NCBI RefSeq assembly: GCF_027942865.1
Contig: NC_134521.1
Span: 21,020,449 to 21,084,448 of the forward strand
Source: Odontesthes bonariensis
Lineage: Eukaryota; Chordata; Actinopteri; Atheriniformes; Atherinopsidae
Direction of reading: 5' to 3'
DNA: 64,000 nucleotides
The notes under the pieces are model-generated. The model searched no databases and had not been told where the DNA came from. It saw nothing but the letters and a program-made list of their open reading frames with translations. Position 1 is the stretch's first letter, and each line of letters starts with the position of its first letter. Below, one piece after another: positions 2,585-44,605 of the stretch. Made by a program: the position numbers and the translations under genes.

Positions 2585-2590
2585 TTTATT
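2585..2590 (-). promoter_or_regulatory. AATAAA poly(A) signal of the THAP/DDE gene
   Basis: AATAAA reads on the - strand about 80 nt after the stop at 2670. The spacing suits the 3' end of the transposase transcript. Confidence 0.5.
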
Positions 2591-2669
2591 CAAGACATTA
2601 AATATTTCTTAAAACACATGTCAATTGCTTGCTTTGTGGAAAGTCCATTCATCAGGTGTTATTTAGTCA

Positions 2670-4681
2670 TCACAATGGTTTAACAACGATACTGGAGCAC
2701 ATGTTAGTGAGGGCACAACACACCCAAACAATTTTGTCCAATAACATCCTATCTTCACCTTCACCAGGAAGCACTGCGACCACTGGTGTTGTCCCATTTA
2801 GAATAGTGTATTTGTTTCGAATGCAACCAATTACTCTCTCCACATGTACCCTAAGATGTGCAATCTTTCTGGTTTCCTCCACATCCTTCGCCTCAAGTTG
2901 GCAAAGTCCTCGTGTGAACGCAGGTGTTTTGACTTCAGCACACATGAACCCAACATTTTCATCAATATCAAAGCCCCTGTCCGCCAACAAAATATCTCCA
3001 GGTAGTAACTTACGCAACATACCCGAGCACTCTGTAATGTGCTTATCACTAGCACGCCCCCCCCACCCTTTAGAAATGAAAGATACTGCTCCTTGTGGTG
3101 TGCAACCAATAAGATACTTAATTGTGTGCTTGTGTTTGTAACGGGAAAATGTTTTGCACTGCGCTGTAAGGTTTGATGCCCTTTCCATGCCAATCTCAAA
3201 GCAGTCCACAATAACAGCCACACGATTACCAAACGCCTCAACAAATTGGTGTGGCATGCTTCCACGTAAAAACTCTCTCTCTGGCCAATGTATCAGTGGG
3301 CTCAAATGACTGTTTAAAGTTGACACAGTGTCTCTGATTGTTGTTGAGGCAGTCTTCCGACAGATACTGAAGAGGTCTGCTAGATGTTGAATGGGTAGGT
3401 TGAGTCTCAATCGCATCAAGGTCAGCAGCAACATCTGGAACGCAGTCAGCTTCCGACCAATCTTTAAACAAGGGCTAATCTCAGCAAGAACGCCCATCAA
3501 GACGGCAAGACATGGGATACCAGTGTAATAGTTCACCTTCTCCTCATTTTCAAGAAAACTTTCAGTCATATTTTTTTTTGACAACTCTTCCTTCAGATGC
3601 TGGTTCTCAGCGAGTAACCGGTTTATTTCTGCACGCCTCTGGCAACAAAAACTGCACTCCTGCTCGCCTTGGTCCATATCCACACTTGACGACAATGTAT
3701 CAGAGGTGTCATCGCCATCATCTTCATTGGAAGGGGGAGGAGGTGAAGCAGGTGTTTCAGTAGATGCTGTTTCAGTAGATGGTGTATGCCTACATTCAGG
3801 AGGTTGCTGTTGATTCATTCTGCGGCGGTAACGTTCAGTATCCACACCAGCCTCCGTGTGACCAAGATGTAGGGATGGTGCCCAGTCTGGGTCACACTCC
3901 ATCATTTCATACGAGGGTTTACCTACAAAACACAAACAAAGATATTGTCAGGATGTGAAGCTGGTTGAAAATGAATGAGTAATTATCTGCAATTGAGTCA
4001 CACAGTCACACAGTTGTTTAAATAATAGAGGTTTAAACCCACAAATAAGCCAAAGTGTAAGAACTAATTTAAGATATAGCCAGGCAAAGATCATTATATT
4101 AAGTGCCATTTGTGCCATTCATGTTAAACCACACTAATGCTTAGCTTTTCTGAAATGCTGAGGTGTTGAGTCATGTTTACATGCTACTGTAGCCTACTTA
4201 ATGTTGTCGCCTCTGCCAACCAAACAAACAAAAAATATTTCGACAAACCAACGACCCAGCAAGTCAAAAAAACTTGATAGTTTACCCAGCTAGGCTATGT
4301 TTACAAAAAAATATCACGTCTCTATGCCGATTAGCAGTATCCTGGTGCTAACGCTAACGGATGTTTACGAAGCCGTCAGACACATTTAAGCACATTCTGA
4401 TTAAAACTATTACTATTATTTTAAAATATATTACAGATCTTACCAGTATGAAAATGTCTGGAGCAAACAAACATGTTTTTTGACACGTTGTTGAAGGTTA
4501 TGGTAGTCCTCCTTACAGCTGCCACCCAAGCCATCTGACGCCTCTTTGTCACCTCTGACACATGGGCTCCTTGAGTTTGTTTCCACGTTGGAAAAGAATA
4601 AAATCTCCGGTTTTGTAAAAGCTTTCCATGGCCGTCGTGAGACCGATTATAGCAATCCTTCACACAACACCCACAAACCAT
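2670..4681 (-). CDS. THAP domain + PIF/Harbinger-like DDE transposase, two exons
   Basis: Exon 1 is 4681-4444 and exon 2 is 3922-2670, with an intron 4443-3923 (GTAAG donor, TTTTGTAG acceptor). Splitting a glycine codon joins the frames to give about 496 residues. Exon 1 encodes a THAP zinc finger: N-terminal cysteines, FYSFP, W52, and C73-x2-H76. Exon 2 starts KPSYEM, the usual continuation in THAP/DDE proteins. It then has an acidic Pro/Ser/Thr-rich linker, a short coiled coil with a CxxC pair (ORF residues 93-125), a helix-turn-helix (about 181-207) and a DDE_Tnp_4 catalytic core: D244 in VIVDCFE, D319 in LADRGF, E366 in HVERVIG. No stop or frameshift is seen, so the protein may be functional. 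A TATA box lies upstream at 4880-4887. Superfamily: PIF/Harbinger or the related ISL2EU group. Confidence 0.87.
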
Positions 4682-4887: not shown

Positions 4888-4997
4888 GCCGTCATCCGCG
4901 ATCCGCCACCTCTCTTGACAAACAATATTTATTTTAAAAATAATTATCAAATAATTAAACAAATAAATTAAAGTTTGTTTAGTGTCAATGTCTGGTT

Positions 4998-5936
4998 TTG
5001 ATATCCGTCTTGTTGGTGATTTCTGTCATGAAACGAGATACTGAAAATATCTATATTGCGGAAAAGGAGGGTGCACACTTCCGTTCTATTGGACAGTTAG
5101 CCAGAGAGCTTGTAAAGCGGCGCCGGACTATCGTTATTAGGCCTACAATACATGCCCAGATTATTTTCGGTGTGGCGCACAGGGTTGCTCGAAAGCGCCC
5201 CCCGCACGCTTTTTTTTCGCACCGGAGCCACTCATTCTCTGCGCTCCGGGATCTCCCACTTTACAAATTAAGCACTGGTTATCAGAATGAAATTCGAGGA
5301 GGACCGTTCTTAGAACGGCTCTGTCTGAATGCGGCTAATGACTCTATTCCTCCGGGGTTTGTTTACTCTTATAAACCTCGTGGATCGGGACACGGAGGCG
5401 GTCTCGCGATACTTTACCGCGATAAGTGGAAGGTCCTTCTGGTGTCTGTGCCACCTCTCTCCTCACTGGTATGCCTTGTCTGTCAAATTTTTGGATCAAC
5501 CCCCATTATCGTTGCCACAGTCTACCGTCCCCCTAAGCCTCACAAAGACTTCTTAAATGAATTCTCTGCCCTCCTCACTCACCTCTCCACTCTCTCACCT
5601 TATGTAATTCTGCTGGGGGATTTCAATATACATATGGACAATACTGCTCTTCCCCTCACCATAAACTTCTCTTCATCACTCGATAGTTTTGGCCTCAAAC
5701 AGTTCTCAGACTTCCCCACACACATACAGTATAAGGTCATACCCTGGACTTTATTTGCTGCTCTGGTCTCACCCCCTCAAACTGTATTGCTGATGAACTC
5801 CATATTACGGATCACTTCCTCCTCTCATTTAATGTCACTCTCCGCCTCACCATTTCCAAACCACGCCGTGTCATCTCTTTCCGCAATATCAAGGACATTA
5901 ACCTGGACTCCCTCTCCTCGCACATCGCCACCTTGA
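4998..5936 (+). pseudogene. LINE endonuclease domain (degenerate)
   Basis: The 312-codon frame carries late APE-type endonuclease blocks: GRGGGLA-like GHGGGLAILYRD, VYRPPKPHKDF and LLGDFNIHMD. The early TETW-type block is not recognisable, and the N-terminal ~80 residues look non-homologous. Around 5740-5930 the homology (DHFLLSFN, then SFRNIKDINLDSL) lies in other frames, so at least one frameshift separates this part from the RT frame that starts at 5933. The fragment is not expected to be active. Confidence 0.7.
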
Positions 5937-7066
5937 CTCTGGATTCTTCTTCCACCCCTGATGCTCTTGTCACCCAATACAACAATGGTCTTACTAATAT
6001 TCTCAACTCACTTGCTCCTGTCAAATCCCGCTTTACTCGGTCTGCTCCCTGGTTCACTCCTGATCTTCGCTTCATGAAATCCAAAAATCGACTGCTTGAA
6101 CGACTATACAGGAAATCTGGTCTCTCCATACATAAAGACATTTACACAGCTCAGCTCTCTCTTCACAAGGACTTCATCTCTCATGCTAAAACACAATATT
6201 ACTCCAGACTTATCTGCCCTAATGCAGGCAACACCAAGACTCTTTTTTCCGTATTCAACAGCATCTTTCAACCCCCTGACTCCCTACCCCCCCACCTCTA
6301 CTCCTCCGAAACCTGCAATTCTCTCCTCCTGTTTTTCAACGAGAAGGTCAACAAAATCCACCAGCACCTAGGCTCCTCTACCTCTCCCCTCCCCTCCTCT
6401 GATCTTCTACTGCCTTGTCAACCATTTTCCAGCTTTGATCTCCCACATCCCTCAGTAATCTCAGACCTCATCAGTAAGTCCAAACCCTCTTCTTGTCTTC
6501 TTGACCCCCTCCCTACAGTCCTGGTCAAATCCTGCCTTCCTTCTCTGTTCCCCCTCATATCGGCCATCACCCACTCCTCACTGTCCACTGGAATTGTTCC
6601 CGCTCTCTTCAAGTCTGCAGCTGTCAGTCCCTTCTTGAAAAAACCTGGTTCAGACGCCAACGATTTCAATAACCTCCGCCCCATTTCTCACCTTCCTTTC
6701 ATCTCCAAAATCCTGGAAAAAAATGTTGCTTCCCAACTTCACTCCCATCTCAGCAATTACAGCCTTTATAAACAATTCCAGTCTGGTTTCCGTCCACGCC
6801 ACAGCACAGAAACAGCCGTTATCAAGATCACCAACGACCTCCTCATCGCAGCTGACTCGGTTTCATCACTACCCTTATCCTCCTCGATCTGATTGCAGCC
6901 TTTGACACCATTTCTCACCCCATCTTTCCTCAATAGACTCTCCTCCTTAGGCATCACCAACACCCCCCGCACTCAGTTCATACAGCTCAAGTCCTTCTCC
7001 TCTCAGCCCTCCCCCGTCACTTCAGGTTTTCCCCAGGGCTCCATCCTGGGGTCCCTCCTCTTCATC
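5933..7066 (+). pseudogene. LINE linker and reverse transcriptase, N-terminal half
   Basis: The first 310 codons or so contain the linker (SAPWFTPDLR, KTLFSVFN) and early RT blocks: LRPISHLPFISKILEK and FQSGFRPRHSTETA. A frameshift near 6860-6895 moves the next block, LLDLIAAFDT (motif A), into another frame. A block between the LGIT and TQFIQLKSF segments is deleted. Motif B survives as GFPQGSILGSLLF. The 7067-7072 ATCTAC then abuts the first insertion. Confidence 0.75.
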
Positions 7067-7072
7067 ATCTAC

Positions 7073-7736
7073 TGAGTGTGTTTGACCTTCTGGAGGAGCT
7101 GTGGACTTCTTGATTCATCCAGAATTTGTAAGCTACATTTATCTTGTGTACCATTTTGCTTTTTGCTAGATTTTTGCTAGATCTTTGCTAGATTTTTTCT
7201 AGATTTTTGACTGCTTAAAGTAAATTTGCCGGAGGCTTGTTTTCACTGTGTGATAACAGCCCCACTGAAACTAGCTTCAGCCCTGAGTGGCCACTTGTCT
7301 TTTAATCTGTGGGAGGGGTCTGCATGACCCTAGCCCCTATTTAGTCAGCTCAGATCGTATTGTGACTTTCTGAGTGTGTTTGACCTTCTGGAGGAGCTGT
7401 GGACTTCTTGATAATAGGGAGTGTAGGGAATTATTCACTGAGTCTGGTCCTTTATTTTATTTTAATTTTTTATTTTCTTTAGCACAAGTTTCTTGTGTTT
7501 ATATTGAATCCTAAATTGTCTTTGTTTTCTAAATTGTCTTCCCATCTGTCTAGGTACCTGACTTATCGCACTTACTCTAGCACTAGTTTGGCTCTTAGCT
7601 GTTTGGTTTTGGAAGGAAATGCACTTTCTTGTGACCTGAAGTTCTTTTGCCTACCGATGTTGAACGCACTTATTGTAAGTCGCTTTGGTTAAAAGCGTCT
7701 GCAAAATGACCGTAATGTAAAAATCACTGTAATGTA
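7073..7736 (+). mobile_element. 664-bp insertion in the LINE, SINE-like tail
   Basis: ATCTAC stands at 7067-7072 and again at 7737-7742, and the RT reading resumes directly after it. The 3' end has the fish SINE/LINE tail type GTCGCTTTGGTTAAAAGCGT followed by GTAAT-rich repeats. A 42-bp segment (7073-7114) recurs at 7371-7412. A short GCTAGATTTTT repeat lies at 7167-7208. No protein is encoded. Confidence 0.65.
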
Positions 7737-7742
7737 ATCTAC

Positions 7743-8242
7743 CTCCTCCCACTTTGCAATATTTTCAGAAAATTTGGTATACATTTCCACTGCTTTGCAG
7801 ATGACACCCAGCTCTATCTGTCCAGTAAACCTGATGCCAATCTCCCTCCCTCACCCACTGCCTATCTGAGATTAAATCCTGGTTCACCTCAAACTTCCTT
7901 AAACTCAACAGTGATAAAACGGAGCTCTTCCTTGTTAGCACAAAATCCACCCTTTCCAAAGTTGACAGTTTATCCCTCACCATAGACAGCTCCCCAGTGT
8001 CCCCCTCCCCTCAGGTTAAGAGTCTGGGTGTCATCCTCGACAGCACACTTTCTTTCCACTCCCACATCAATAACATTAATCGTCTCCGCTCCTCTCTCAC
8101 TCCTCACACCACTGCTATCCTGGTCCACAGCCTCGTCACCTACCGCATCGATTATTGCAACTCACTCCTTTTGGGTGTCCCTCACAAATCCCTTCATAAG
8201 CTTCAACTGGTCCAAAACTCTGCAGCCCGCATCATCACATGT
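7743..8242 (+). pseudogene. LINE reverse transcriptase, C-terminal half
   Basis: The reading resumes with [20 protein letters not shown] (motif C, FADD) and continues through [26 protein letters not shown] and [13 protein letters not shown]. Two or three frame changes between 7830 and 8000 make it non-functional. It stops at the second insertion. Confidence 0.75.
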
Positions 8243-8249
8243 ACCCCCT

Positions 8250-9102
8250 GTCAAGGTTGAGGGATTGGGGGTGAAGGGAATGTAGGACACGGATGCAGAC
8301 TTCAAAGCAAAAACTTGGTTTATTTTCAAAAAAACAAAGTAACAACAAAAGGCGCGGCTAAGCTGGATTCAAAAAACCTAACTGTGACAAAAAAAAAGGA
8401 ACTAAACATGGCATGGATAAATAAATAAATACTTAACTTGCAAAAACGTGTAAGGTGAAACATGGGGAAACAAGGCAGGCAGGCAGGTCAGGTATCATGG
8501 TTAAGAATCTCACACTGAACACAAAGGACTGAGAACTTAAATAGGGAGTGAGCGTGATAGGGGACAAGGTGCAGCTGGAGGGAAATAAACAGGTGCAGTG
8601 AGTGAACTAATTAACAGGGTGCAGGGAAAACTAAGACATGAACCGAAAACTAAACATGGATTAAAACTCAAAAACGTGACATATAACATGAAACTAAAAA
8701 CAAGAGTCCATAGGCGTGACAGAGCCCCCCCTCAAGGGGTGGATCCCAGATGCCCCTAAAAGGTCTGAGGGTGGGAGGGAGGGGCTCGAAGCCTGTCAGA
8801 CGGGGGACCAGAAACCCGGCAGCGTGGCCGAACAGGCATGCAGCTGAAGTACCGGCTTCGGGCAGCAGGAGGCGGTGGTCTGGTGGACGCCCAGACCTCA
8901 GACGACGTGGCAGGAACAGGCGGTGGTCTGGCCGACGCCCAGACCTCAGACGGCGTGGCAGGAACAGGCGGTGGTCTGGCGGACGCCCAGACCTCAGACG
9001 GCGTGGCAGGAACAGGCGGTGGTCTGGCGGACTAAACATGGATTAAAACTCAAAAACGTGACCTAAAACATGAAACTAAAAACAAGAGTCCACGGGCGTG
9101 AC
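8250..9102. mobile_element. 853-bp insertion in the LINE carrying a minisatellite
   Basis: ACCCCCT-type sequence flanks both ends (8243-8249 and 9103-9109; 8 bp if one mismatch is allowed), so a hAT-like origin is possible. The ends GTCAAG and CGTGAC are only weakly inverted. A 70-bp segment at 8651-8720 is repeated at 9033-9102 around a 48-bp minisatellite. The interior resembles fish dispersed repeats and encodes no recognisable enzyme. Confidence 0.55.
8871..9032. repeat. 48-bp minisatellite, about 3.4 units
   Basis: Units at 8871-8918, 8919-8966 and 8967-9014, plus a partial 9015-9032, differ by one or two bases. The unit equals 16 codons, so several frames on both strands stay open. It is GC-rich compared with its surroundings. 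The apparent peptides are probably by-products of the period. Confidence 0.85.
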
Positions 9103-9109
9103 ACCCCCT

Positions 9110-9439
9110 CCTTTCACCATATCACCCCCATCCTCCAGCAGCTTCACTGGCTCCCGGTCAAATTCAGAATTACTTTCAAAACCCTACTTTACACATTCAA
9201 GGCCATCCACAACCTCGCCCCCCCATATCTGTCTGATCTCCTCTCCATTGTCATCCCATCTCGCTTCCTCAGGTCTTCCTCCTCCCTCCACCTCTCTGTG
9301 CCCTCTGCCTGTCTCAGCACCATGGGGAGCAGAGCTTTCAGTCGCTCTGCTCTCCCAACCCTCTTCAAATCAAAACTCAAAATCCATCTGTTTCAAGCTG
9401 CATTCTCCCTCTTGCCTCTTTTTAACTTGTGTTTTTAAT
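9110..9439 (+). pseudogene. LINE C-terminal segment
   Basis: In-frame continuation of the L2-type C-terminus: SFHHITPILQQLHWLPVKFR, APPYLSDLL, and LFKSKLKIHLFQAAF, ending in a stop near 9438. The short 3' UTR contains the fish-L2 type ending before the ATT-rich tail. Confidence 0.75.
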
Positions 9440-9850
9440 GTGTTGTAAAGTGTCCTTGAGTGTTGAGAAACGCGCTTTTTTTTTATTTATTAAATTTATT
9501 ATTATTATTTATCCTTCACCATCCCAATGTGATATTAGTCGCATTCAAATGGGGCTTGAAAAAACACATATTCACAGAAGATATTTAGGCCCATTCTAGC
9601 AAGAAAAGCACAATTGTAAATTATAACAAAGCTGTAATACACGAGGTGGGACTGAGGCATGATTTTGAGATGTTTTCTGTGAAAATGCGCTAAGACGGTG
9701 GATTCCAGTGACCACATTAAATCCCCATCAAAATCTATGCAGCCTCAGATCAAGATGAAGTCTAATAACTGGACATATCCGTTAGACGTGAAGTCTTTGT
9801 GTCATGAGCATCATACATCTCCTTACTTTGCATTTTTAGTCATGAATTTC

Positions 9851-27625: not shown

Positions 27626-27631
27626 CACATG
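27626..27631 (+). repeat. target-site duplication CACATG, left copy
   Basis: CACATG directly precedes the palindrome start AGAGAGTAG. The second copy is 41371-41376. The uninterrupted site in the sister foldback arm (43337-43357, reverse) has a single copy. Confidence 0.85.
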
Positions 27632-27669
27632 AGAGAGTAGTATAGGATACTTTGTGTCAAAAAAAGATT

Positions 27670-27810
27670 TATGGGGGGTAATAAAAGTGTGATTTATGAG
27701 GGGGGGTAATAAAACGTCATTTGACAGGTGACCTTTTGACCTCCGTATGTCCTGTCACATCAAAGGGTTAGCTCACATCAAAGGGGTAGCTCACATCAAA
27801 GGGTCAGCGA
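27670..27810. repeat. subterminal direct repeats of the palindrome, left arm
   Basis: GATTTATG-G6/7-TAATAAAA occurs twice (about 27666-27686 and 27691-27715), and CACATCAAAGGG three times (about 27756-27802). The mirrored set is at about 41192-41332. Such repeats are often binding sites for a transposase or replication protein; that role is inferred. Confidence 0.6.
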
Positions 27811-27887
27811 TAACAAGTTGCTGGTGGTGTGGGTTAGGGGTGGGTGTTAGGGGGGTTCAATATGTTTGAGTAGTAACAGTATTGACA

Positions 27888-28480
27888 ATCAAATCAAATT
27901 TATTTGTATAACACATTTCGTGTACAAAACAATTCAAAGTACTTCACGTAAAATAAAAGCAAATCAAGTAAAGTCTTTCATTGTCAGATACACAGAACAA
28001 CAGAGTCGGGCACTGAAATTCATGACATAAGTACGCTAACAATAAATAGTCAATATAGATACTATAAAATATACATTTTACGTTAATTACTAGTGCTATA
28101 CTGAACATATAATACACTTAATAGCCTATGCTAATCTAAGACCTATACTAACCTAGAAACCCAAGATAAAAATACAATATTGTGTAATATTGCATGTTGT
28201 AGTGCATTTCAGCAGGGAGTGTAAGAAGCATTAAAATATATAAAAGAATATAAAGAGAAACAAATAAAATAATTTTAAATTAATTTAAAAACAAGCAACT
28301 GTCCAGATAAATTAAAATATATCGTGCAGATTCCACACATAGACACATGAGAAAAGTAATGTTTTTAACCTGGATTTAAAAATGTCTCCATTTGGAGAGA
28401 GTTTAATCTCCACTGGCAGTTTGCTCCACTTGTTTGCAGCATAACAGCTAAATGCTGCTTCTTTGTGTTTTATAAATAAA
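27888..28480 (-). pseudogene. L2-like LINE 3' end inside the left arm
   Basis: Read on the - strand: YAANKWSKLPVEIKL, then IFKSRLKTLLFSC and a UTR ending ATACAAATAAATTTGATTTG. This is the usual C-terminus and tail of fish L2-type LINEs. The inverted copy is at 40523-41115. Confidence 0.65.
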
Positions 28481-29038
28481 AAGATGGTAAACTGTCAAGA
28501 TTTAAAATACTGCATTCTTGATTGTTTCAAAAAGTATGTAGACAGGCTATAGATAGTTTAAATGCTAATATGTTAAAGTTTACACGAGACAGTCAGACGA
28601 TTCAAATCGCATTGTGGCAAATCAAGGAGTGAGTTTCCACAGCAGGGGTCCACGGGAACCTGTCAAAATGGGTGGTTTCAGGGTAAGTGATGAATACAGT
28701 AAAAAGGCTGAATTTCCAGTCTCATCCCGTAAGGTGACTTGGGGGATGTTGGAGGTGTGATAAGAATCCAGCCTGACTTTAAGAACCAATGAGATGACAG
28801 GAGGGTGGGGGGTTTTGGTAATGGATAAAAATAAAAATAAAAATGTCTCTATTTGGTGAAAGTTTAATCTCCATTGGCAGTTTGTTCCACTTGTTTGCAG
28901 CATAACAGCTAAATGCTGCTTCTCTGTGTCTAGTTTAAATGCTAATATGTTAAAGTTTACACGAGACTGTCAGACGTTTCAAATCGCATTGAGGCATATC
29001 AAGGTGTGAGTTTCCACAGCAGGGGTCCACGGGAACCT
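28379..29038. repeat. tandem duplication, left arm
   Basis: The segment 28379-28660 is repeated in diverged form at 28840-29038, covering the KLPVEIKL-type block and the sequence ending CAGCAGGGGTCCACGGGAAC. The inverted set is at 39965-40624. Confidence 0.7.
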
Positions 29039-29527
29039 GAAAAAAAAAAAAGAAAAGATTATTCAAGAAAACCCTTGAAACAGGAAGCACAAAGAGATGT
29101 TAATGTGACCTCACACCAACAGTATATCTGCATCCGCACCAGACAAGAATAACTCAATAAACTGGCTTATGTTACCCCTCATACTTTATGTTACTTTGCT
29201 GCTAAAAGATTTATTTATCTCCAGTTGAGCAGTGTAAAGAAAATTTACTCAACATTTAATTAGCCAAATTCAATATGATCTGCTGTATTCAATGCAATTT
29301 ATTATTAATAAAGGTAATCACACACACACACACACAGCCAGAGACAAACAACGACATGTTTTCACGAGTGCTGACAGTTTTCTATTCTCAGGTAAACTTC
29401 ATCTCAGGGCAAATACTAAACCAGACAGATTTGTCAGCCTTCTTCAGGTAGGCTACTTCTAAATAGGAGTCTGCACACCTATTAACTAAGCCGGGGTGAA
29501 TAAAAGCTTACAAAAAATAAAAATAAA

Positions 29528-30725
29528 AATAAAAAAACCTTATTCATCCATTGTTGTGCAACAACCCAGAAGTAGATCTCCTAGGGATGTTTAGAGTTGA
29601 TATTAAGAATGATTTAAGTTTAAAAAAAAAACAAAAAAAAAACAAAAAAACAAAGCAGATGTAAAAGAAAAAACCCTCCTAACGACATGCAGAGAAATAA
29701 ACTACAGTCAAAATAAAGTTTTCAAACAGAGTTCGAGCACGCTCCTAAAACACCTGAGCACCAAGTTACCCACGAAGTGATCAGAACTGATCAGAAGTGT
29801 AAAGAGATAGATGTTCCAGGCAACTACAGGCTTAGAAAAAATTATTTAGAGATAACGGTAAGTCACTCGTCTAGCAGAGTCAGGTTCTCAGCTGTCATCC
29901 TGAGAACTACCAATGTCTGATTCTATCTTTTATTCTGAGATCTTCTGAATTTCCAGTTAAACATTTATATCAGATATGTGTAACAGATAGTTAGATGTAC
30001 AAGTCACATCCTGCATTTACTGTTACAATGTTAACTCAAATGTGAACTAAATCTTCATGGCAGCAAAAGACTCCAGCGCGCACACACACACAGAAAAGTA
30101 GTCAAGAGTTATCTTTCCACAAAACCTTTTAGGTGTGCAGTGCAATTGTCCAAACAACAAACAAACAAAAAAAAAAAACCCTTATTCATCCATTGTAGAC
30201 AGTGCATCAGCTGCGGCGGGAATTTCGAGAGTTACGACGACTGTTGTGCAACAACCCAGAAGTAGATCTCCTATGTTTAGAGTTGATATTAAGAATGATT
30301 TAAGTTTAAAAAAAAATTGAAAAATTGAAAAAAAAAAAGCAGATGTAAAAGAAAAAAAAACCCCTCCTAACGACACGCAGAGAAATAAACTACAGTCAAA
30401 ATAAAGTTTTTCAAACAGAGTGCAACATGTTCCTAAAACACCTGATTGCTAAGTTACCCACAAAGTGTTTAGAACTGATCACAAGTGTAGAGAGATAGAT
30501 GTTCCCTTATGATTAAAACTAAAGTCAACATTTAATAAACTTCAAAATTTTATTTTCCACACAGAGGAAATGATCACCATTAACTGCATGAATGAACAGT
30601 TTAGTCACAGAGGCACTAAGTATGTTCTCATGAGAACAGGGTACGACCTCTGACAACTACAGGCTTAGAAAGAATGATTTGGAGATAACAGTAAGTCATT
30701 CTTCTAGCAGAGACAGAATATAGCA
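29528..30725. repeat. duplicated ~0.4-0.55-kb module, left arm
   Basis: 29528-29890 and 30176-30725 share blocks in order: TTATTCATCCATTG, CAACAACCCAGAAGTAGATC, GTTGATATTAAGAATGATTT, AACGACA-GCAGAGAAATAAA, and ACTACAGGCTTAGAAA-AAT ending at a donor-like GTAAGTCA. The second copy has 48 extra bases after CATCCATTG. Function unknown. Mirrored at 38278-39475. Confidence 0.7.
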
Positions 30726-30733
30726 TTTGAATA

Positions 30734-30746
30734 CCCCCCCCCCCCC
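30734..30746. repeat. poly-C run, 13 bases (20 in the other arm)
   Basis: C13 here pairs with G20 at 38250-38269. This is the largest length difference between the arms. Confidence 0.9.
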
Positions 30747-32469
30747 AAGTCAAAGGTGAAAGTGTATAACAATAGACTCTGCTCTTCAAAAGCTTCAATA
30801 GGCCAATTCACATATATTCCTGATAAAATAATGTTAATTTTGCAACATTCCAAAATAATGGACCTGAATCCGACTCAACGTCTGATTGTAGTATTAGGAG
30901 ATAACCTAAGTGTATATAAGATGTTAACCAGCAAACAAGGCCTGAGTTCATTCAGCCTTAAAGACTTCAGACTCTGCTTAATCCATCCTTCATTTGAAAT
31001 CAAAACACGATAAGCTCAACTGAGATGGCTTTGTGGTAAGATTCAAACACGAACAGTTGTTCGATTTGATGAGTAAATACTGGAACAAGTGAGCATGCAA
31101 AGAAAACATATTGATCTCCTGGAGACTCAGGATTAAATATAATAAAAAATGATCAAAGTCTAATCTTTCTTGAATTGTTTAAAACATTGGTTACTGCTTC
31201 AACTGCGTTTTGTGTTGTTTTTCTGATAGTTTATGCTCCCCGAAAGAATTGATTAAGCTGAAATTAAAACTTCATGCTTTAGTTTTGCATAAAGACCTTA
31301 TAAATGTACACTTTATGCCCACCAAACTCTTGTATGCTCTTAGATTTTACATGAATGTAACCTTAAAACCAATACTAATATTATTATTAAGCTTGATTTG
31401 TAAATATTTTGAACATGAACAACTTTTCTTGATCTTATGTACTAGTAATTTGTAGATCTTAAATCAACTTAAGCTGAAGGCGCAAGCCAAATTCTTTAAC
31501 TCCATTTCCCCACCTTGGTTTATTTAAGACAACTACGTATTTATCTTAAACAGAATACCGGCACACAACCGGTTCTAGTCTGGAATAGCTACTGTAGTGG
31601 ATTTTTTTATTTTTTTTTTATCAAGTGAGTAAGAAGACTACTCAGATAATATATTTATTCAAAGGCAGAATATAGCATCAAAGAACAAATAAGGCTCCTC
31701 TGTTCTATATCTAAGATAAGATGGGTGTCTCTTTATAACCCCCTAGAGTTAATCTCCCCAGAAAGTATCCACCATAAACCCCCTCTGTCTTCTCTCACTG
31801 ACCACTGAAGACAAGCAACACAGGCCACTCTGTAAAATCAATATTAAAGGTGATATTTAAAAAGTGAAACGTTATTTCATTTAACTAAAAGAGGGCAGGA
31901 GGGTTAAATTAGCCACACAATATTAAATATTCTGCATCTAATGATTAATTTCTCACATCTTTGAATTACTACTCTTGCGAACATTTCATGACACAGAAAA
32001 TGTATCCTAAATTGTATATCCAACCAACATGAAAATTCCATACACTGCAGACGATGGCAGCAATAACCAGTGTTTCAATCTTATTCTATTTTTTATTACC
32101 ATTACCATTATTTTATAACCAAAGAAAAACCATGCCTTTCAACAAATTTAAAAACTAGACTGGATACAAATGAGCACGTTCACCAAATGCAGTCTAAAAC
32201 AGCAATCAAAGAGATGATAGATTCATTTCAGAAGTTGGGTATAGGGAGACTTTCCAATAAAGAATATCAATTTGCTATCTGGAGGGACCAACATTGGATA
32301 TAAATCAGTTAATTTACGTGTTGAGGGTCGACTAAGATTAAATATTCCTAGTTTTTCCCCGTTGTTCTTAATATCTGACCATCCCACACCTGGACTCAAA
32401 ATAGTGTAACATGATGTGGAAAGTTTGAAATGCAATGAAATTACACGTGCTGCATCGTTACTCGTTATT

Positions 32470-32600
32470 ATAAACGCACACACACACACATAAAAACGTA
32501 CACTCATTCATGCACAAACACACCCACACGCATACAAACACGCAAACATGCATATAAAAACACACACAGAGAGACACACAAGCATGCACACAGTTTAAAG
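32470..32600. repeat. CA-rich microsatellite, left arm
   Basis: Interrupted CACACA/CAAACA repeats, mirrored as GTGTGT-rich sequence at 36396-36526. ORFs crossing it are composed of V/C/F/L runs and are not credible genes. Confidence 0.85.
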
Positions 32601-32639
32601 AAGGGGAAAAGTTGTAAAGAAAAAAAAAGCACAAGCAGG

Positions 32640-32945
32640 AAAGAGAGGGGAGGGATGCTTTAAATGGAGAGGGGACATGCTTGATCTGTTTGTTCACAAA
32701 GAGTTAAGCCCAATGTTTTCAGGTGTTCTAGTCACTTTTTGTTTTTACATGACATTTGTATTTGTATGTGGTATACTGGCCTTGAGATTTTTTTAACAAG
32801 TTGAAAGAAAATGACAAGGATGAAAAGAAAATGTGTAATGTGTGAAGTGATGGGAGATGCTTTAAAGGGGGAAGGGACATACTTGCCAATACATATTCTT
32901 TTGTTCAAAAGAGTTGAGCGCAATGTTTTAAGGTGCTCTTGTACG
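32640..32945. repeat. diverged tandem pair, left arm
   Basis: GGGAGGGATGCTTTAAATGG...AATGTTTTCAGGTGTTCTAG (32646-32732) and GGGAGATGCTTTAAAGGGGG...AATGTTTTAAGGTGCTCTTG (32851-32942) are related copies about 205 bp apart. Mirrored in the right arm. Confidence 0.65.
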
Positions 32946-33146
32946 CTCCGCTGTACTGCTGTTACAGCCAAACATTTTGAATAATATAAACAATTTGATT
33001 TTCAAACTTTCGACCGATTTCTTTAATAACTACACTACACAATGCTTTTACTTTCAGTGCTTGAGTAGTAATTTTAAAAATAAACTACTTGCAATACTTA
33101 AGTACAAAACATGTTTAATACTTTAATACTTCCACTTAAGTACGGT

Positions 33147-33450
33147 GCTTATAGATGGTGATAAAAAGACAAAAAGAAAAAAAAGTTTTAAAAAAACAAG
33201 TTCATAATCACTCAATTCCAATATTTCCTGAACATAATGAGATTCAAAATGGATGCCACCTGATTACGTCATAATATGCAAATTAGATCAATAATTTCAT
33301 ACCCCACATAAACTATGGATCATGGGCAACATTTTTCTAATGTACAGTAGGCATCTATCTTTAACCCCCTTTCAGCCACCAGCTTTTTGAAATATTAATG
33401 TCAAAATCCAGTATTTAAAAAAAAAAAAAAACAATCTTGGTGCCTAAAGG
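33147..33450. repeat. dispersed repeat, left-arm copy
   Basis: Matches 13-310 of the window. It is followed at 33457-33493 by a 37-bp sequence (ATTCCAAAATAATGGACCTG core) that also occurs at 30840-30876. Confidence 0.75.
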
Positions 33451-34112
33451 CTTAATATTGCAACATTCCAAAATAATGGACCTGAATCCGACTTAAAGAG
33501 CACTTCTACTTCTAGTCAAGTCACTTTTTTGATAGAGTACTTGTACTTCTACTCAAGTCTGAATCGTTTGTAGGCTACTTTATACATGTATGGTTCTAAC
33601 ACTTTATTCTTTTCCTGAAATAGTTGAAAAGATCGATTCAAATGACTAGTTATTTAGGAAGCTGCAGTTTGGGGTGCTGTTAAACTTTACAGCGTACTTT
33701 TATCGCCCAGAAAAAACATCTAGCGTGTTTCATGAGTGATGGACTGACTCTGCGTCAGTACTATTAGCCTAAGCTGCGTTAGAGCGCAAAGGTGATCCGT
33801 TTAAATGTCAAATGCTATCTTCGTGTAGCCTGCACCTTTAACTGAACATTGTCAACTACATCTACACTAACCCAGTTATCAAAAAGCACAGGTTTCTTTA
33901 CACTGTTTCTTGGTACTCAGTCAAGATCAGCTGTAAATCAGCCCCACACAGAGCCGTAGTTACACAGCAGCAGGGCAGTTAAAGAAATCTACCCGCAGTC
34001 CAGGAGGCTGGAGCCGGTTTGGAAGATACATTTTATTACTACCCAGCAATAAACAGTCAGGAGACCATCTTATGTAGGCAGCACTTAATATAGAGGAATT
34101 ACAATGATATGT

Positions 34113-34471
34113 TTAAAGAAAGAAAAAAAAAAAATAATTCGTATGTAATTTACAACTTTGAGGACTGCAGCTATTGCGAACAGCGTCAGCCGTGACATTT
34201 CCAGTCTCACCTGCTTTCTGATGCACCAACCGATCATCCGGTCTGGTCTGTAGGTAGTTTAGGGGCCCGCATCGTTTTAGATCGAAAATGTGTGGAGAGC
34301 GGCGAGGACCGAAAGAGTTTCTGTGGCACTGCATGCAGGGACAATCTGACCAGGCCTCGGTCGGACATCAAAGACCCCCTCCCACCCCCTTCAGTCAGGA
34401 AGATTTTACTCTGCTCCCCCAAAGGTAAGAGGTTCAACCGCGCCAAAAATTACCGGAGTGAAGCAGCTTCA
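34113..34471. other. innermost part of the left arm, GC-richer, unassigned
   Basis: This part is more GC-rich than the rest of the arm and open in a + frame (34292 onward, rich in R/K/P) and in - frames. A donor-like AAAG|GTAAGAGG lies at 34421-34432. I recognise no family. The same sequence is inverted at 34525-34883. Confidence 0.35.
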
Positions 34472-34524
34472 CCGGGGGATGCTCCAGTAACCTCATCATC
34501 ACCCTAGAACGTGTCTCCGGTTGA
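34472..34524. other. 53-bp centre of the palindrome
   Basis: The only unpaired sequence between the arms. It contains CTCATCATCACCC and no evident motif. Its presence means the arms are not joined by a perfect hairpin. Confidence 0.85.
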
Positions 34525-35545
34525 TGAAGCTGCTTCACTCCGGTAATTTTTGGCGCGGTTGAACCTCTTACCTTTGGGGGAGCAGAGTAAAATCTTCCTG
34601 ACTGAAGGGGGTGGGAGGGGGTCTTTGATGTCCGACCGAGGCCTGGTCAGATTGTCCCTGCATGCAGTGCCACAGAAACTCTTTCGGTCCTCGCCGCTCT
34701 CCACACATTTTCGATCTAAAACGATGCGGGCCCCTAAACTACCTACAGACCAGACCGGATGATCGGTTGGTGCATCAGAAAGCAGGTGAGACTGGAAATG
34801 TCACGGCTGACGCTGTTCGCAATAGCTGCAGTCCTCAAAGTTGTAAATTACATACGAATTATTATTTTTTTTTCTTTCTTTAAACATATCATTGTAATTC
34901 CTCTATATTAAGTGCTGCCTACATAAGATGGTCTCCTGACTGTTTATTGCTGGGTAGTAATAAAATGTATCTTCCAAACCGGCTCCAGCCTCCTGGACTG
35001 CGGGTAGATTTCTTTAACTGCCCTGCTGCTGTGTAACTACGGCTCTGTGTGGGGCTGATTTACAGCTGATCTTGACTGAGTACCAAGAAACAGTGTAAAG
35101 AAACCTGTGCTTTTTGATAACTGGGTTAGTGTAGATGTAGTTGACAATGTTCAGTTAAAGGTGCAGGCTACACGAAGATAGCATTTGACATTTAAACGGA
35201 TCACCTTTGCGCTCTAACGCAGCTTAGGCTAATAGTACTGACGCAGAGTCAGTCCATCACTCATGAAACACGCTAGATGTTTTTTCTGGGCGATAAAAGT
35301 ACGCTGTAAAGTTTAACAGCACCCCAAACTGCAGCTTCCTAAATAACTAGTCATTTGAATCGATCTTTTCAACTATTTCAGGAAAAGAATAAAGTGTTAG
35401 AACCATACATGTATAAAGTAGCCTACAAACGATTCAGACTTGAGTAGAAGTACAAGTACTCTATCAAAAAAGTGACTTGACTAGAAGTAGAAGTGCTCTT
35501 TAAGTCGGATTCAGGTCCATTATTTTGGAATGTTGCAATATTAAG

Positions 35546-35849
35546 CCTTTAGGCACCAAGATTGTTTTTTTTTTTTTTTAAATACTGGATTTTGACATTA
35601 ATATTTCAAAAAGCTGGTGGCTGAAAGGGGGTTAAAGATAGATGCCTACTGTACATTAGAAAAATGTTGCCCATGATCCATAGTTTATGTGGGGTATGAA
35701 ATTATTGATCTAATTTGCATATTATGACGTAATCAGGTGGCATCCATTTTGAATCTCATTATGTTCAGGAAATATTGGAATTGAGTGATTATGAACTTGT
35801 TTTTTTAAAACTTTTTTTTCTTTTTGTCTTTTTATCACCATCTATAAGC
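35546..35849. repeat. dispersed repeat, right-arm copy
   Basis: Inverted counterpart of 33147-33450, and hence third copy of the repeat at 13-310. Confidence 0.75.
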
Positions 35850-38249
35850 ACCGTACTTAAGTGGAAGTATTAAAGTATTAAACATGTTTTGTACTTAAGT
35901 ATTGCAAGTAGTTTATTTTTAAAATTACTACTCAAGCACTGAAAGTAAAAGCATTGTGTAGTGTAGTTATTAAAGAAATCGGTCGAAAGTTTGAAAATCA
36001 AATTGTTTATATTATTCAAAATGTTTGGCTGTAACAGCAGTACAGCGGAGCGTACAAGAGCACCTTAAAACATTGCGCTCAACTCTTTTGAACAAAAGAA
36101 TATGTATTGGCAAGTATGTCCCTTCCCCCTTTAAAGCATCTCCCATCACTTCACACATTACACATTTTCTTTTCATCCTTGTCATTTTCTTTCAACTTGT
36201 TAAAAAAATCTCAAGGCCAGTATACCACATACAAATACAAATGTCATGTAAAAACAAAAAGTGACTAGAACACCTGAAAACATTGGGCTTAACTCTTTGT
36301 GAACAAACAGATCAAGCATGTCCCCTCTCCATTTAAAGCATCCCTCCCCTCTCTTTCCTGCTTGTGCTTTTTTTTTCTTTACAACTTTTCCCCTTCTTTA
36401 AACTGTGTGCATGCTTGTGTGTCTCTCTGTGTGTGTTTTTATATGCATGTTTGCGTGTTTGTATGCGTGTGGGTGTGTTTGTGCATGAATGAGTGTACGT
36501 TTTTATGTGTGTGTGTGTGCGTTTATAATAACGAGTAACGATGCAGCACGTGTAATTTCATTGCATTTCAAACTTTCCACATCATGTGACACTATTTTGA
36601 GTCCAGGTGTGGGATGGTCAGATATTAAGAACAACGGGGAAAAACTAGGAATATTTAATCTTAGTCGACCCTCAACACGTAAATTAACTGATTTATATCC
36701 AATGTTGGTCCCTCCAGATAGCAAATTGATATTCTTTATTGGAAAGTCTCCCTATACCCAACTTCTGAAATGAATCTATCATCTCTTTGATTGCTGTTTT
36801 AGACTGCATTTGGTGAACGTGCTCATTTGTATCCAGTCTAGTTTTTAAATTTGTTGAAAGGCATGGTTTTTCTTTGGTTATAAAATAATGGTAATGGTAA
36901 TAAAAAATAGAATAAGATTGAAACACTGGTTATTGCTGCCATCGTCTGCAGTGTATGGAATTTTCATGTTGGTTGGATATACAATTTAGGATACATTTTC
37001 TGTGTCATGAAATGTTCGCAAGAGTAGTAATTCAAAGATGTGAGAAATTAATCATTAGATGCAGAATATTTAATATTGTGTGGCTAATTTAACCCTCCTG
37101 CCCTCTTTTAGTTAAATGAAATAACGTTTCACTTTTTAAATATCACCTTTAATATTGATTTTACAGAGTGGCCTGTGTTGCTTGTCTTCAGTGGTCAGTG
37201 AGAGAAGACAGAGGGGGTTTATGGTGGATACTTTCTGGGGAGATTAACTCTAGGGGGTTATAAAGAGACACCCATCTTATCTTAGATATAGAACAGAGGA
37301 GCCTTATTTGTTCTTTGATGCTATATTCTGCCTTTGAATAAATATATTATCTGAGTAGTCTTCTTACTCACTTGATAAAAAAAAAATAAAAAAATCCACT
37401 ACAGTAGCTATTCCAGACTAGAACCGGTTGTGTGCCGGTATTCTGTTTAAGATAAATACGTAGTTGTCTTAAATAAACCAAGGTGGGGAAATGGAGTTAA
37501 AGAATTTGGCTTGCGCCTTCAGCTTAAGTTGATTTAAGATCTACAAATTACTAGTACATAAGATCAAGAAAAGTTGTTCATGTTCAAAATATTTACAAAT
37601 CAAGCTTAATAATAATATTAGTATTGGTTTTAAGGTTACATTCATGTAAAATCTAAGAGCATACAAGAGTTTGGTGGGCATAAAGTGTACATTTATAAGG
37701 TCTTTATGCAAAACTAAAGCATGAAGTTTTAATTTCAGCTTAATCAATTCTTTCGGGGAGCATAAACTATCAGAAAAACAACACAAAACGCAGTTGAAGC
37801 AGTAACCAATGTTTTAAACAATTCAAGAAAGATTAGACTTTGATCATTTTTTATTATATTTAATCCTGAGTCTCCAGGAGATCAATATGTTTTCTTTGCA
37901 TGCTCACTTGTTCCAGTATTTACTCATCAAATCGAACAACTGTTCGTGTTTGAATCTTACCACAAAGCCATCTCAGTTGAGCTTATCGTGTTTTGATTTC
38001 AAATGAAGGATGGATTAAGCAGAGTCTGAAGTCTTTAAGGCTGAATGAACTCAGGCCTTGTTTGCTGGTTAACATCTTATATACACTTAGGTTATCTCCT
38101 AATACTACAATCAGACGTTAAGTCGGATTCAGGTCCATTATTTTGGAATGTTGCAAAATTAACATTATTTTATCAGGAATATATGTGAATTGGCCTATTG
38201 AAGCTTTTGAAGAGCAGAGTCTATTGTTATACACTTTCACCTTTGACTT

Positions 38250-38269
38250 GGGGGGGGGGGGGGGGGGGG
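38250..38269. repeat. poly-G run, 20 bases
   Basis: Counterpart of the C13 run at 30734-30746. Confidence 0.9.
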
Positions 38270-40522
38270 TATTCAAATGCTATATTCTGTCTCTGCTAGA
38301 AGAATGACTTACTGTTATCTCCAAATCATTCTTTCTAAGCCTGTAGTTGTCAGAGGTCGTACCCTGTTCTCATGAGAACATACTTAGTGCCTCTGTGACT
38401 AAACTGTTCATTCATGCAGTTAATGGTGATCATTTCCTCTGTGTGGAAAATAAAATTTTGAAGTTTATTAAATGTTGACTTTAGTTTTAATCATAAGGGA
38501 ACATCTATCTCTCTACACTTGTGATCAGTTCTAAACACTTTGTGGGTAACTTAGCAATCAGGTGTTTTAGGAACATGTTGCACTCTGTTTGAAAAACTTT
38601 ATTTTGACTGTAGTTTATTTCTCTGCGTGTCGTTAGGAGGGGTTTTTTTTTCTTTTACATCTGCTTTTTTTTTTTCAATTTTTCAATTTTTTTTTAAACT
38701 TAAATCATTCTTAATATCAACTCTAAACATAGGAGATCTACTTCTGGGTTGTTGCACAACAGTCGTCGTAACTCTCGAAATTCCCGCCGCAGCTGATGCA
38801 CTGTCTACAATGGATGAATAAGGGTTTTTTTTTTTTGTTTGTTTGTTGTTTGGACAATTGCACTGCACACCTAAAAGGTTTTGTGGAAAGATAACTCTTG
38901 ACTACTTTTCTGTGTGTGTGTGCGCGCTGGAGTCTTTTGCTGCCATGAAGATTTAGTTCACATTTGAGTTAACATTGTAACAGTAAATGCAGGATGTGAC
39001 TTGTACATCTAACTATCTGTTACACATATCTGATATAAATGTTTAACTGGAAATTCAGAAGATCTCAGAATAAAAGATAGAATCAGACATTGGTAGTTCT
39101 CAGGATGACAGCTGAGAACCTGACTCTGCTAGACGAGTGACTTACCGTTATCTCTAAATAATTTTTTCTAAGCCTGTAGTTGCCTGGAACATCTATCTCT
39201 TTACACTTCTGATCAGTTCTGATCACTTCGTGGGTAACTTGGTGCTCGGGTGTTTTAGGAGCGTGCTCGAACTCTGTTTGAAAACTTTATTTTGACTGTA
39301 GTTTATTTCTCTGCATGTCGTTAGGAGGGTTTTTTCTTTTACATCTGCTTTGTTTTTTTGTTTTTTTTTTGTTTTTTTTTTAAACTTAAATCATTCTTAA
39401 TATCAACTCTAAACATCCCTAGGAGATCTACTTCTGGGTTGTTGCACAACAATGGATGAATAAGGTTTTTTTATTTTTATTTTTATTTTTTGTAAGCTTT
39501 TATTCACCCCGGCTTAGTTAATAGGTGTGCAGACTCCTATTTAGAAGTAGCCTACCTGAAGAAGGCTGACAAATCTGTCTGGTTTAGTATTTGCCCTGAG
39601 ATGAAGTTTACCTGAGAATAGAAAACTGTCAGCACTCGTGAAAACATGTCGTTGTTTGTCTCTGGCTGTGTGTGTGTGTGTGTGATTACCTTTATTAATA
39701 ATAAATTGCATTGAATACAGCAGATCATATTGAATTTGGCTAATTAAATGTTGAGTAAATTTTCTTTACACTGCTCAACTGGAGATAAATAAATCTTTTA
39801 GCAGCAAAGTAACATAAAGTATGAGGGGTAACATAAGCCAGTTTATTGAGTTATTCTTGTCTGGTGCGGATGCAGATATACTGTTGGTGTGAGGTCACAT
39901 TAACATCTCTTTGTGCTTCCTGTTTCAAGGGTTTTCTTGAATAATCTTTTCTTTTTTTTTTTTCAGGTTCCCGTGGACCCCTGCTGTGGAAACTCACACC
40001 TTGATTTGCCTCAATGCGATTTGAAACGTCTGACAGTCTCGTGTAAACTTTAACATATTAGCATTTAAACTAGACACAGAGAAGCAGCATTTAGCTGTTA
40101 TGCTGCAAACAAGTGGAACAAACTGCCAATGGAGATTAAACTTTCACCAAATAGAGACATTTTTATTTTTATTTTTATCCATTACCAAAACCCCCCACCC
40201 TCCTGTCATCTCATTGGTTCTTAAAGTCAGGCTGGATTCTTATCACACCTCCAACATCCCCCAAGTCACCTTACGGGATGAGACTGGAAATTCAGCCTTT
40301 TTACTGTATTCATCACTTACCCTGAAACCACCCATTTTGACAGGTTCCCGTGGACCCCTGCTGTGGAAACTCACTCCTTGATTTGCCACAATGCGATTTG
40401 AATCGTCTGACTGTCTCGTGTAAACTTTAACATATTAGCATTTAAACTATCTATAGCCTGTCTACATACTTTTTGAAACAATCAAGAATGCAGTATTTTA
40501 AATCTTGACAGTTTACCATCTT

Positions 40523-41115
40523 TTTATTTATAAAACACAAAGAAGCAGCATTTAGCTGTTATGCTGCAAACAAGTGGAGCAAACTGCCAGTGGAGATTAA
40601 ACTCTCTCCAAATGGAGACATTTTTAAATCCAGGTTAAAAACATTACTTTTCTCATGTGTCTATGTGTGGAATCTGCACGATATATTTTAATTTATCTGG
40701 ACAGTTGCTTGTTTTTAAATTAATTTAAAATTATTTTATTTGTTTCTCTTTATATTCTTTTATATATTTTAATGCTTCTTACACTCCCTGCTGAAATGCA
40801 CTACAACATGCAATATTACACAATATTGTATTTTTATCTTGGGTTTCTAGGTTAGTATAGGTCTTAGATTAGCATAGGCTATTAAGTGTATTATATGTTC
40901 AGTATAGCACTAGTAATTAACGTAAAATGTATATTTTATAGTATCTATATTGACTATTTATTGTTAGCGTACTTATGTCATGAATTTCAGTGCCCGACTC
41001 TGTTGTTCTGTGTATCTGACAATGAAAGACTTTACTTGATTTGCTTTTATTTTACGTGAAGTACTTTGAATTGTTTTGTACACGAAATGTGTTATACAAA
41101 TAAATTTGATTTGAT
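40523..41115 (+). pseudogene. L2-like LINE 3' end inside the right arm
   Basis: Inverted counterpart of 27888-28480; reads YAANKWSKLPVEIKL and IFKSRLKTLLFSC on the + strand and ends in the ATACAAATAAATTTGATTTG tail. Confidence 0.65.
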
Positions 41116-41370
41116 TGTCAATACTGTTACTACTCAAACATATTGAACCCCCCTAACACCCACCCCTAACCCACACCACCAGCAACTTGTTATCGCTGAC
41201 CCTTTGATGTGAGCTACCCCTTTGATGTGAGCTAACCCTTTGATGTGACAGGACATACGGAGGTCAAAAGGTCACCTGTCAAATGACGTTTTATTACCCC
41301 CCTCATAAATCACACTTTTATTACCCCCCATAAATCTTTTTTTGACACAAAGTATCCTATACTACTCTCT

Positions 41371-41376
41371 CACATG
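41371..41376 (+). repeat. target-site duplication CACATG, right copy
   Basis: Follows the palindrome end CTACTCTCT and leads straight into CCATGACACCAAAC, the continuation of the pre-insertion foldback arm. Confidence 0.85.
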
Positions 41377-43033: not shown

Positions 43034-44605
43034 ACGTCACTTCCTTGATCTAGGAGCTTTAATAGAGAGGGTTGATCTACTACTGTAGACAACAAAGTAT
43101 ATGCTATATTCTACATGCATTTTTATGTTGTAGAGTTGTGAATTTATTTTATCAATGGAGAAATTGAGTAGCCTTGCCTTGTTGTCTACAGTAGTAGATC
43201 AACCCTCATCTTACATTGAAGCTCCCAGATCAAGGAAGTGACATCGACGCAGCTTTAGCAGCAGAGAAGCTATTAGGCTTGTGTTGATAATAATTTTGTG
43301 AGTACAGACCATATTTGTACTACTGTAGAAGTTTGGTGTCATGGCATGTGATTTTAGTGTGGTAATTTTGGAGATACTGCCAGTGTCCGTTAGCGCTTGT
43401 ACTAAGCTATTCGGGATAACTCAGTAACTCAGCTGATGTTCAGCCAATATCGGAAAAACTTCGGGTGGGCTACTTGGCTGGATGTCACGGTTCAAATGAC
43501 CCTAGGGTGAATCTACTCCGAAACACTTTCTAAGGCTGCATCGAACGGTAACGTTGTGTCCGCTGCCATGTTGGATTAACACTCTACAAGCTTCGGTGTA
43601 GCGCATAGATGTCGTCATTCCCCCCCCACTGTACAACACTCGCGTTACAGTAAATGAGGTGTCCACTTGCATACCTCATGCTATTTACCGTTACATTAGC
43701 GACAGTGACTGAGCTATTAGCTGCAGAGCTAACGACACAGATAGACTGACCGTTTTGACTCTGGAACCATGAATGAATCATTATCCTGATGAAATGCACT
43801 GAATTTGCGGATTCATTCTTCTTCAGGAAGCTTGAAGTAGGGGGTTTTGGTCTAAAATGAGCGAGCTAACCATCTCATGGGCATGCAAACACCTCCAACA
43901 GCCCAGTTGGCAGAGATAAGAGCTTGCTAACATGACACACGCATACCTGATGCTATTAGCCGCATAGCAAACGATACAGACACTTTCTTGTGGTAACAAG
44001 CTATGTAACTATACTGTAGATACAGGAAAAAAACACAATTATAGAGCGTTAAATTACTTTCTTGTCAGAGGTCTGTAGTAGGGCCAAAGAGAGTTGGTAC
44101 TGATCCAGGGTTAATTTTCAGACGTTCGGCAAGGCCAGCTCGGTATTGGCCGAAGTTCTGGAAACATTCGTCGGTGAAATGTTTGGCGCACATATACACA
44201 AATCGCTTCGGTTCTGTCGTCACTTTCCCAGAAAAAAACAAAATCTGTCCACTGGCTCTTTAGAGGTTCTGATGCAGGAGCTCTAAACAGATTTTTTACA
44301 TCCATGTACAGAGCAATGAGCTGGCCAAAGAGCTGTGGGCGGGGAAAGGCAGTTTTGGTATAGCCATTTATGGGCTCTTGGGGGAAATAACCTCGACGTC
44401 ATATGAGGCGCCACGTCATAAGCGGCGGCTTTCCCGATCAGGCCATCTGCATGGTCACATTACCAAAGGCGGAGAATAATTTCCAGTGCATGGTTTAGGT
44501 CTATCGTCATTTTTAGCCACTGGGGGACCGCAGGCAGGCTAGGGGAACTCATATTAATGTTAAACCACCTTAAAAAGTAAAAATTTCATGCCATGGCTCC
44601 TTTAA

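Follow-up and report, generated by a model that had tools for sequence, protein, structure and literature searches.

What kind of element forms a near-perfect palindrome of 13,739 bp in a fish chromosome, and how have its two halves come to be almost identical? The questions are raised by a 64,000-nucleotide stretch of the Odontesthes bonariensis genome (C21:21020449-21084448 of the 945-Mb assembly; hereafter the window), in which an original prediction, made from the letters alone, had described a near-perfect palindrome with arms of about 6.84 kb and a 53-bp centre. We confirmed the palindrome at window positions 27632..41370 and found that its left arm (27632-34471, plus strand) and right arm (34525-41370, minus strand) are inverted copies of 6.84 kb, 99.8% identical, around a loop of 53 nucleotides (nt; 34472-34524) that is the sole single-copy part of the element. 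The arms differ by only five substitutions (at 28997, 29755, 30876, 32408 and 34132) and in the lengths of two homopolymers, a G run near 27700 and a C run near 30733, a likeness over 6.8 kb that is far beyond chance. The element proved to belong to a family of Maverick (Polinton) derivatives whose arms have repeatedly been made alike within each copy.

The element starts with AGAGAGTAG, which contains the (AG)3 Maverick end motif (27632-27640, plus strand), and finishes with CTACTCTCT (41362-41370, minus strand), and its symmetry ends at the CACATG duplications that flank it on the left (27626-27631) and on the right (41371-41376), as had been predicted. About 2 kb away, on the minus strand at 43236-43525, lies a paralogous target site without the element, with identities of 86% and 72% to the two flanks, in which the flanks meet across a single CACATG; about 60 bases around this junction are identical, with gaps further out. 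Since the empty site carries one CACATG, the window block is an insertion of exactly 27632-41370, although the duplication can also be read as the 7-bp TCACATG, given one end cut a base shorter. The window palindrome is a real discrete mobile element, and the description of it as a giant non-autonomous foldback without a recognisable transposase also stood up: it contains no stop-to-stop frame longer than 115 amino acids (aa), and with that limit and duplications of 6 bp it gave no sign of a P- or Mutator-type transposase or of the duplication lengths of those families.

Other insertions that share these ends and have 6-bp duplications, the absence of which had been named as grounds for abandoning the prediction, do exist. 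The terminal 800 bp of the window element has at least 49 matches in the genome, 37 of them in 15 facing pairs (including the window element itself) that lie ~7-25 kb apart; these copy numbers are lower bounds, as scoring covered the best 40 of 1877 candidates in one case and 40 of 132 in the other. We examined 16 loci, namely, the window, 10 of the 14 other facing pairs and 5 of the 10 single-ended loci, and found long palindromes at 13: 11 elements with both ends known, which span 12.2-16.3 kb, and two more at the loci C21s (100% identity over 5703 bp) and C13s (5 mismatches over 3821 bp). The remaining three loci gave short inverted pieces only (C28s) or no palindrome in the stretch examined (C18s and C18t). 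Nine of the 11 elements are flanked by perfect, mutually different 6-bp duplications (CACATG, GCCGTG, GTCACT, GATGTA, TAAGTT, TATATA, CTTGTG, CGTGTC and CATTTG), the starts of C1a and C14a having been moved 1-2 bases onto the AGT motif before the duplications were taken. C3a starts with AGAGAG and then diverges, and its palindrome extends a few bases further out.

The ends of these elements point to their source. Vertebrate Mavericks make 6-bp duplications and commonly have the end motifs (AG)3//(CT)3 or (AGT)2//(ACT)2 (PMC8097293, Barreat & Katzourakis 2021), and the palindrome ends in this genome are of both types, in inverted orientation. The genome holds 64 matches to the domain of pPolB, the protein-primed polymerase, and 15 places carry open frames of 1200-1444 aa. 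A genome search with a 34-bp end pattern (up to 3 mismatches) hit 30 places, versus 0 for the reversed control, and these form 15 facing pairs: 7 palindromes, 7 pairs that enclose a pPolB match and 1 that is unclassified (C23:24471126). The (AGT)2 variant of the pattern hit 19 places, again versus 0 for the control, giving three single ends and eight pairs, among them the palindromes C1a, C2b and C14a, three pPolB-bearing pairs, a 25-kb pair (C23:29302803) and an unclassified 6-kb pair on C12. With both patterns together, a pPolB match lies within 10 facing pairs with palindrome-type ends. Palindromes and pPolB-bearing elements have three end spellings in common (AGAGAGTAG, AGAGAGAGG and AGTAGTTAG). 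The terminal pattern search of viral contigs gave 0 matches.

Two of the pairs merit description in their own right. The unclassified C23 pair (C23:24471126-24484148) spans 13.0 kb and has Maverick ends (AGAGAGAGG), the duplication ATAGTG and outer 250 bp that are nearly identical at both ends; no pPolB match is listed in it, and a palindrome structure was not demonstrated. At C12:11360875-11366942, AGT-type Maverick ends face each other only 6 kb apart.

The likeness to Mavericks extends inward from the tips. All three of the Mavericks checked carry 6-bp duplications (AACAGT on C21, CATGCG on C24 and CAAGTG on C28), and the first 60 bp of the window element are identical to those of the Maverick at C28:24779855, with 90 of the first 93 bases aligning identically. 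Beyond these 93 bp, separate arm blocks match Maverick ends at 69-96%, to ~1.3 kb. These Maverick-like terminal and subterminal blocks occupy arm positions 1-1298 (window 27632-28929, plus strand), with a mirror copy at 40073-41370 (minus strand) that follows from the symmetry of the arms, and short blocks near 1.5-2.9 kb of the arm match the Maverick at C2:34785686.

A trace of the polymerase gene survives at the turn of the palindrome. Loop lengths range from 41 nt in C2a and C18a through 51 nt in C24a, 53 nt in the window copy and 63 nt in C14a to 331 nt in C29a, 335 nt in C20a, 501 nt in C3a, 546 nt in C2b, 568 nt in C16a and 1596 nt in C1a, the last including a 500-N gap. One loop core, with differing boundaries, is common to six copies; at the turn of C3a and C16a the sequence is a different one. 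The 331- and 335-nt loops appear to have arisen by one-sided loss. The C14a core matched pPolB coding sequence at 50.0 bits, compared with 32.8 bits for the best of 1000 dinucleotide shuffles, and it keeps the pPolB frame (APVTSSSPSNVSPESPS versus APVTSSSLSNESPDSIS, 13 of 17 residues). In the window copy, the in-frame match to the pPolB N-terminal coding sequence (34464-34518, plus strand) reaches 40.1 bits at best and contains one stop. The loops of six copies match this N-terminal region in 3-4 of 5 Maverick pieces. Outside the ~58-bp relic, comparison of the arms with pPolB gave only scraps of 21-36 bp.

The genes of an autonomous Maverick (pPolB, integrase, capsid proteins, ATPase and protease) were not recognised in the palindromes, degraded genes not having been sought by profile, and by coordinates, none of the 64 genomic pPolB matches falls inside an examined palindrome. 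Arm frames in the other palindromes reach 184 aa, and C13s has a cut DDE_3 transposase frame. Taken together, the ends, the 6-bp duplications, the subterminal repeats and the central pPolB relic show that the palindromes descend from Mavericks. We read their origin as an internally deleted Maverick, the arms of which then grew by changes copied from side to side. The original prediction is thus supported, yet it included neither Maverick parentage nor a mechanism for keeping the arms alike.

We next compared the arms within and between copies. In pairwise alignments, the two arms of each of the 11 elements resembled each other more closely than either resembled any arm of another examined element (11 of 11), with arm-to-arm differences of 0.016-1.07%, compared with 0.58-3.95% to the nearest other element. 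(We kept only high-scoring segment pairs of at least 150 bp with an offset no greater than 2500 bp, so that 2328 bp remained for C2b, and ranked only other arms with more than 3000 aligned bases; pairwise alignments were used because a whole-arm multiple alignment inflated the between-element distances through misaligned indels.) For the five close copies, the arms differed by 0.016-0.22% within a copy, and the nearest other copy lay 0.58-1.23% away. A tree of 13 elements placed the two arms together as sisters in 11. In contrast, the matching stretches of the terminal repeats of the C21 and C24 Mavericks differ by 2-9% and are rearranged.

Mutations private to one copy were commonly present in both of its arms. 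Among the five close copies, with C16a set aside, 50 private substitutions were shared by the two arms of a copy and 19 were confined to one arm; for the window copy, the numbers were 47 and 3, respectively. These counts rest on 5182 of 7081, 3626 of 11652 and 3960 of 7881 alignment columns, those near gaps or in dense variable stretches having been dropped together with 1, 1 and 2 multi-allelic columns. Indels behaved similarly: relative to the reference copy C2a, indels of at least 15 bp in C18a, C24a, C20a and C29a numbered 6 in both arms and 3 in one arm, and the window copy had 6 in both arms, including +177, +321 and +381 bp. Eleven listed one-arm indels of the window copy (reference positions 2257-3212) were treated as alignment ambiguity because a direct comparison of its two arms shows just 2 indels. 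The arms have therefore repeatedly been made alike within each copy.

The simplest account of this repeated homogenisation is, in our view, snapback copying during replication. A helper Maverick would provide the protein-primed polymerase and the integrase; the polymerase would initiate at the shared ends and displace one single strand, and the displaced palindromic strand would fold back on itself as a hairpin of half its length (~6-7 kb). Mismatched positions would be corrected while the two arms are paired in the hairpin, or the hairpin would be copied round its loop, so as to yield a palindrome with identical arms before integration, which the integrase would insert with a 6-bp duplication. 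The loop would retain a remnant of the ancestral polymerase gene, and insertions and deletions that arose in one arm would end up in both. The sequences demonstrate integration, the existence of a family, its Maverick ends and duplication length, the polymerase relic and the homogenisation of arms within copies; the single-stranded DNA hairpin, the helper proteins acting in trans and packaging are inferred. We consider it probable that, as a whole, this reading is correct, i.e., that the palindromes are satellites, non-autonomous Maverick derivatives with a self-complementary genome and without recognised genes, whose arms are re-made by snapback copying in helper-driven strand-displacement replication. 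A stronger version, in which they form an inherited satellite or defective-interfering lineage of a vertebrate Maverick, with the ~6-7-kb hairpin as its replicating form and each insertion representing one snapback round, we put forward only tentatively.

A number of results weigh against the satellite reading. With regard to parentage, no Maverick counterpart was found for most of the arm inward of ~1.3 kb, the pPolB relic spans only ~40-58 bp, and an acidic stretch of the same pPolB protein is also matched, if more weakly, by the opposite strand. One of the five Maverick pieces (C28:20691740) gave no nucleotide match to the loop core, and the centres of C24a and C20a gave no match to the pPolB N-terminal region. 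C16a and C3a have no target duplication. The C13s palindrome (C13:24397010-24405700) extends at least 0.76 kb past its Maverick-like end block and includes a mirrored part of the DDE_3 transposase frame; its boundaries were not found. With regard to homogenisation, the arms of C1a and C2b, both of which are rearranged or have an N gap, were not sisters in the tree, and the second group (C1a, C14a and C2b) had 30 mirrored and 34 one-arm private sites, the latter mostly from C14a (23) and C2b (10). C16a alone had 17 mirrored, 28 one-arm and 8 shared sites, as well as 2 indels of at least 15 bp relative to C2a in both arms and 4 in one arm, and both arm alleles were seen in other copies at 4 sites in the first set and 3 in the second. 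Finally, mirrored mutations could also be obtained by gene conversion between the arms on the chromosome, and the distribution of the arm differences, tested in the eight copies with at least 5 of them, was uneven in four: C18a and C20a have theirs mainly towards the centre, C16a and C3a in the outer arm.

Arm-to-arm gene conversion has been proposed for sex-chromosome palindromes, and a Maverick-derived palindrome whose arms were kept alike in this way after insertion would be expected to show the same within-copy similarity and mirrored private mutations; the four uneven distributions also favour it. However, in the other four copies the distribution could not be distinguished from an even one (Kolmogorov-Smirnov test; C14a, n = 44, p = 0.756; C29a, n = 13, p = 0.264; C24a, n = 5, p = 0.076; window copy, n = 5, p = 0.962), as expected if the differences arose after insertion, and one-sided central differences of ~330 nt persist in C20a and C29a. 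Moreover, outer clusters and a missing duplication occur together in the same two copies, a pattern consistent with recombination between copies. C16a (C16:32154282-32167756), which has no arm differences in its inner 40%, and C3a (C3:45514120-45526764) appear to be such recombinants, because they lack duplications, their differences cluster in the outer arm and C16a alleles are shared with other copies. The distribution thus leans, short of proof, toward homogenisation during replication, and we regard conversion on the chromosome as unlikely.

The near identity of the arms in young copies would also be seen if one master palindrome with identical arms had undergone a recent burst without any homogenisation. 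Such a burst predicts, however, that distances within and between copies should be about equal and that there should be almost no mirrored private sites, whereas the within-copy distances of the close copies lie well below the between-copy ones and mirrored sites outnumber one-arm sites by 50 to 19, so that we consider it very improbable. A cut-and-paste foldback element of the Galileo or Foldback type, Maverick-like at its ends only, would account for inverted arms that make up most of the element, but not for the 6-bp duplications, the terminal sequence held in common with pPolB-bearing elements, the pPolB relic in the loop and the lack, in the window element, of any open frame longer than 115 aa, and we give it still less credence. 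That the palindromes are an assembly artefact of foldback reads is hardly credible. The one copy that lends itself to this explanation is C1a (C1:9874227-9887238), where 500 N at the centre show the assembly failing at the turn and palindrome centres therefore to be hard to assemble; against it stand flanks that differ between the two sides, the duplications, the empty site, the scattered arm differences and the recurrence of the same structure at many loci, each with a different duplication.

The rest of the window holds other repeats. A dispersed repeat within the left arm (33149-33455, plus strand; mirror copy at 35541-35847, minus strand), which by position lies inside the ~381-bp length difference from C2a found in both arms, recurs at window positions 12-312 with 94% identity. 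A YqaJ-type exonuclease frame (1033-2415, plus strand) adjoins a DDE_Tnp_4 transposase frame (2673-3947, minus strand), and these two frames near the start of the window are probably parts of a separate DNA transposon. Remnants resembling a long interspersed nuclear element (LINE) follow at 4983-9448, with an endonuclease frame and a reverse transcriptase frame (RVT_1, below the curated cut-off), and a UnaL2 LINE 3' element at 7661-7715 is the only Rfam match in the window at the gathering threshold. A tRNA search of the window found none.

If the stronger, tentative version of the satellite reading is true, the insertions would be genomic evidence that vertebrate Mavericks replicate by protein-primed strand displacement through single strands, and the palindromes may hold their helpers in check through competition for ends or through double-stranded RNA. 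Protein-primed replication of Mavericks has so far been deduced from the polymerase that they carry. In a multi-copy satellite family with arms kept alike in each copy, a vertebrate genome would preserve a legible trace of that replication. Long palindromes scattered through chromosomes may also seed rearrangement, the two copies without duplications, which look recombinant, being possible breakpoints; a raised density of Mavericks has been reported at inversion breakpoints in Atlantic cod (PMC12368964). Titles and the openings of abstracts in the open-licence PMC literature, a scope outside which Repbase and Dfam lie, yielded no description of a palindromic Maverick.

The comparison with known systems starts with Mavericks themselves, which the palindromes resemble in their 6-bp duplications, their AG and AGT end motifs and the terminal sequence that they have in common with pPolB-bearing elements of the same genome. 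Their sizes (12.2-16.3 kb, n = 11) overlap those of published Mavericks (12.7-24.6 kb), for which viral particles are reported not to have been observed (PMC8097293). They differ from Mavericks in having no recognised core gene, in arms of ~6 kb or more, compared with published terminal repeats of 46-1447 bp (PMC8097293), and in that their arms are made alike, unlike the diverged and rearranged terminal repeats of the C21 and C24 Mavericks. Galileo (PMC3573991) and Tm1 (PMC3169594) have similarly long terminal inverted repeats and a Foldback-like structure, but they are described as a P-element-like and a Mutator family, respectively, whereas the palindromes have the ends and the duplication length of Mavericks.

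Closer parallels are found among viruses. Protein-primed linear DNA also gives rise to the symmetric defective genomes of adenovirus, in which one end is duplicated as an inverted copy; these are laboratory products and not an inherited family. The snapback genomes of adeno-associated virus (AAV) are self-complementary, derive from one end, have symmetric or unequal loops and depend on a helper, and their 5' class retains part of the replication gene (PMC8235507). In being self-complementary one-end genomes with equal or unequal loops and a retained part of a replication gene, the palindromes find in them a close analogue; the difference is that the AAV genomes are those of a parvovirus and were sequenced from particles, whereas here we see chromosomal copies of a diverged lineage with Maverick ends. 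If the satellite reading is correct, this family would be a Maverick satellite comparable to the snapback genomes of parvoviruses.

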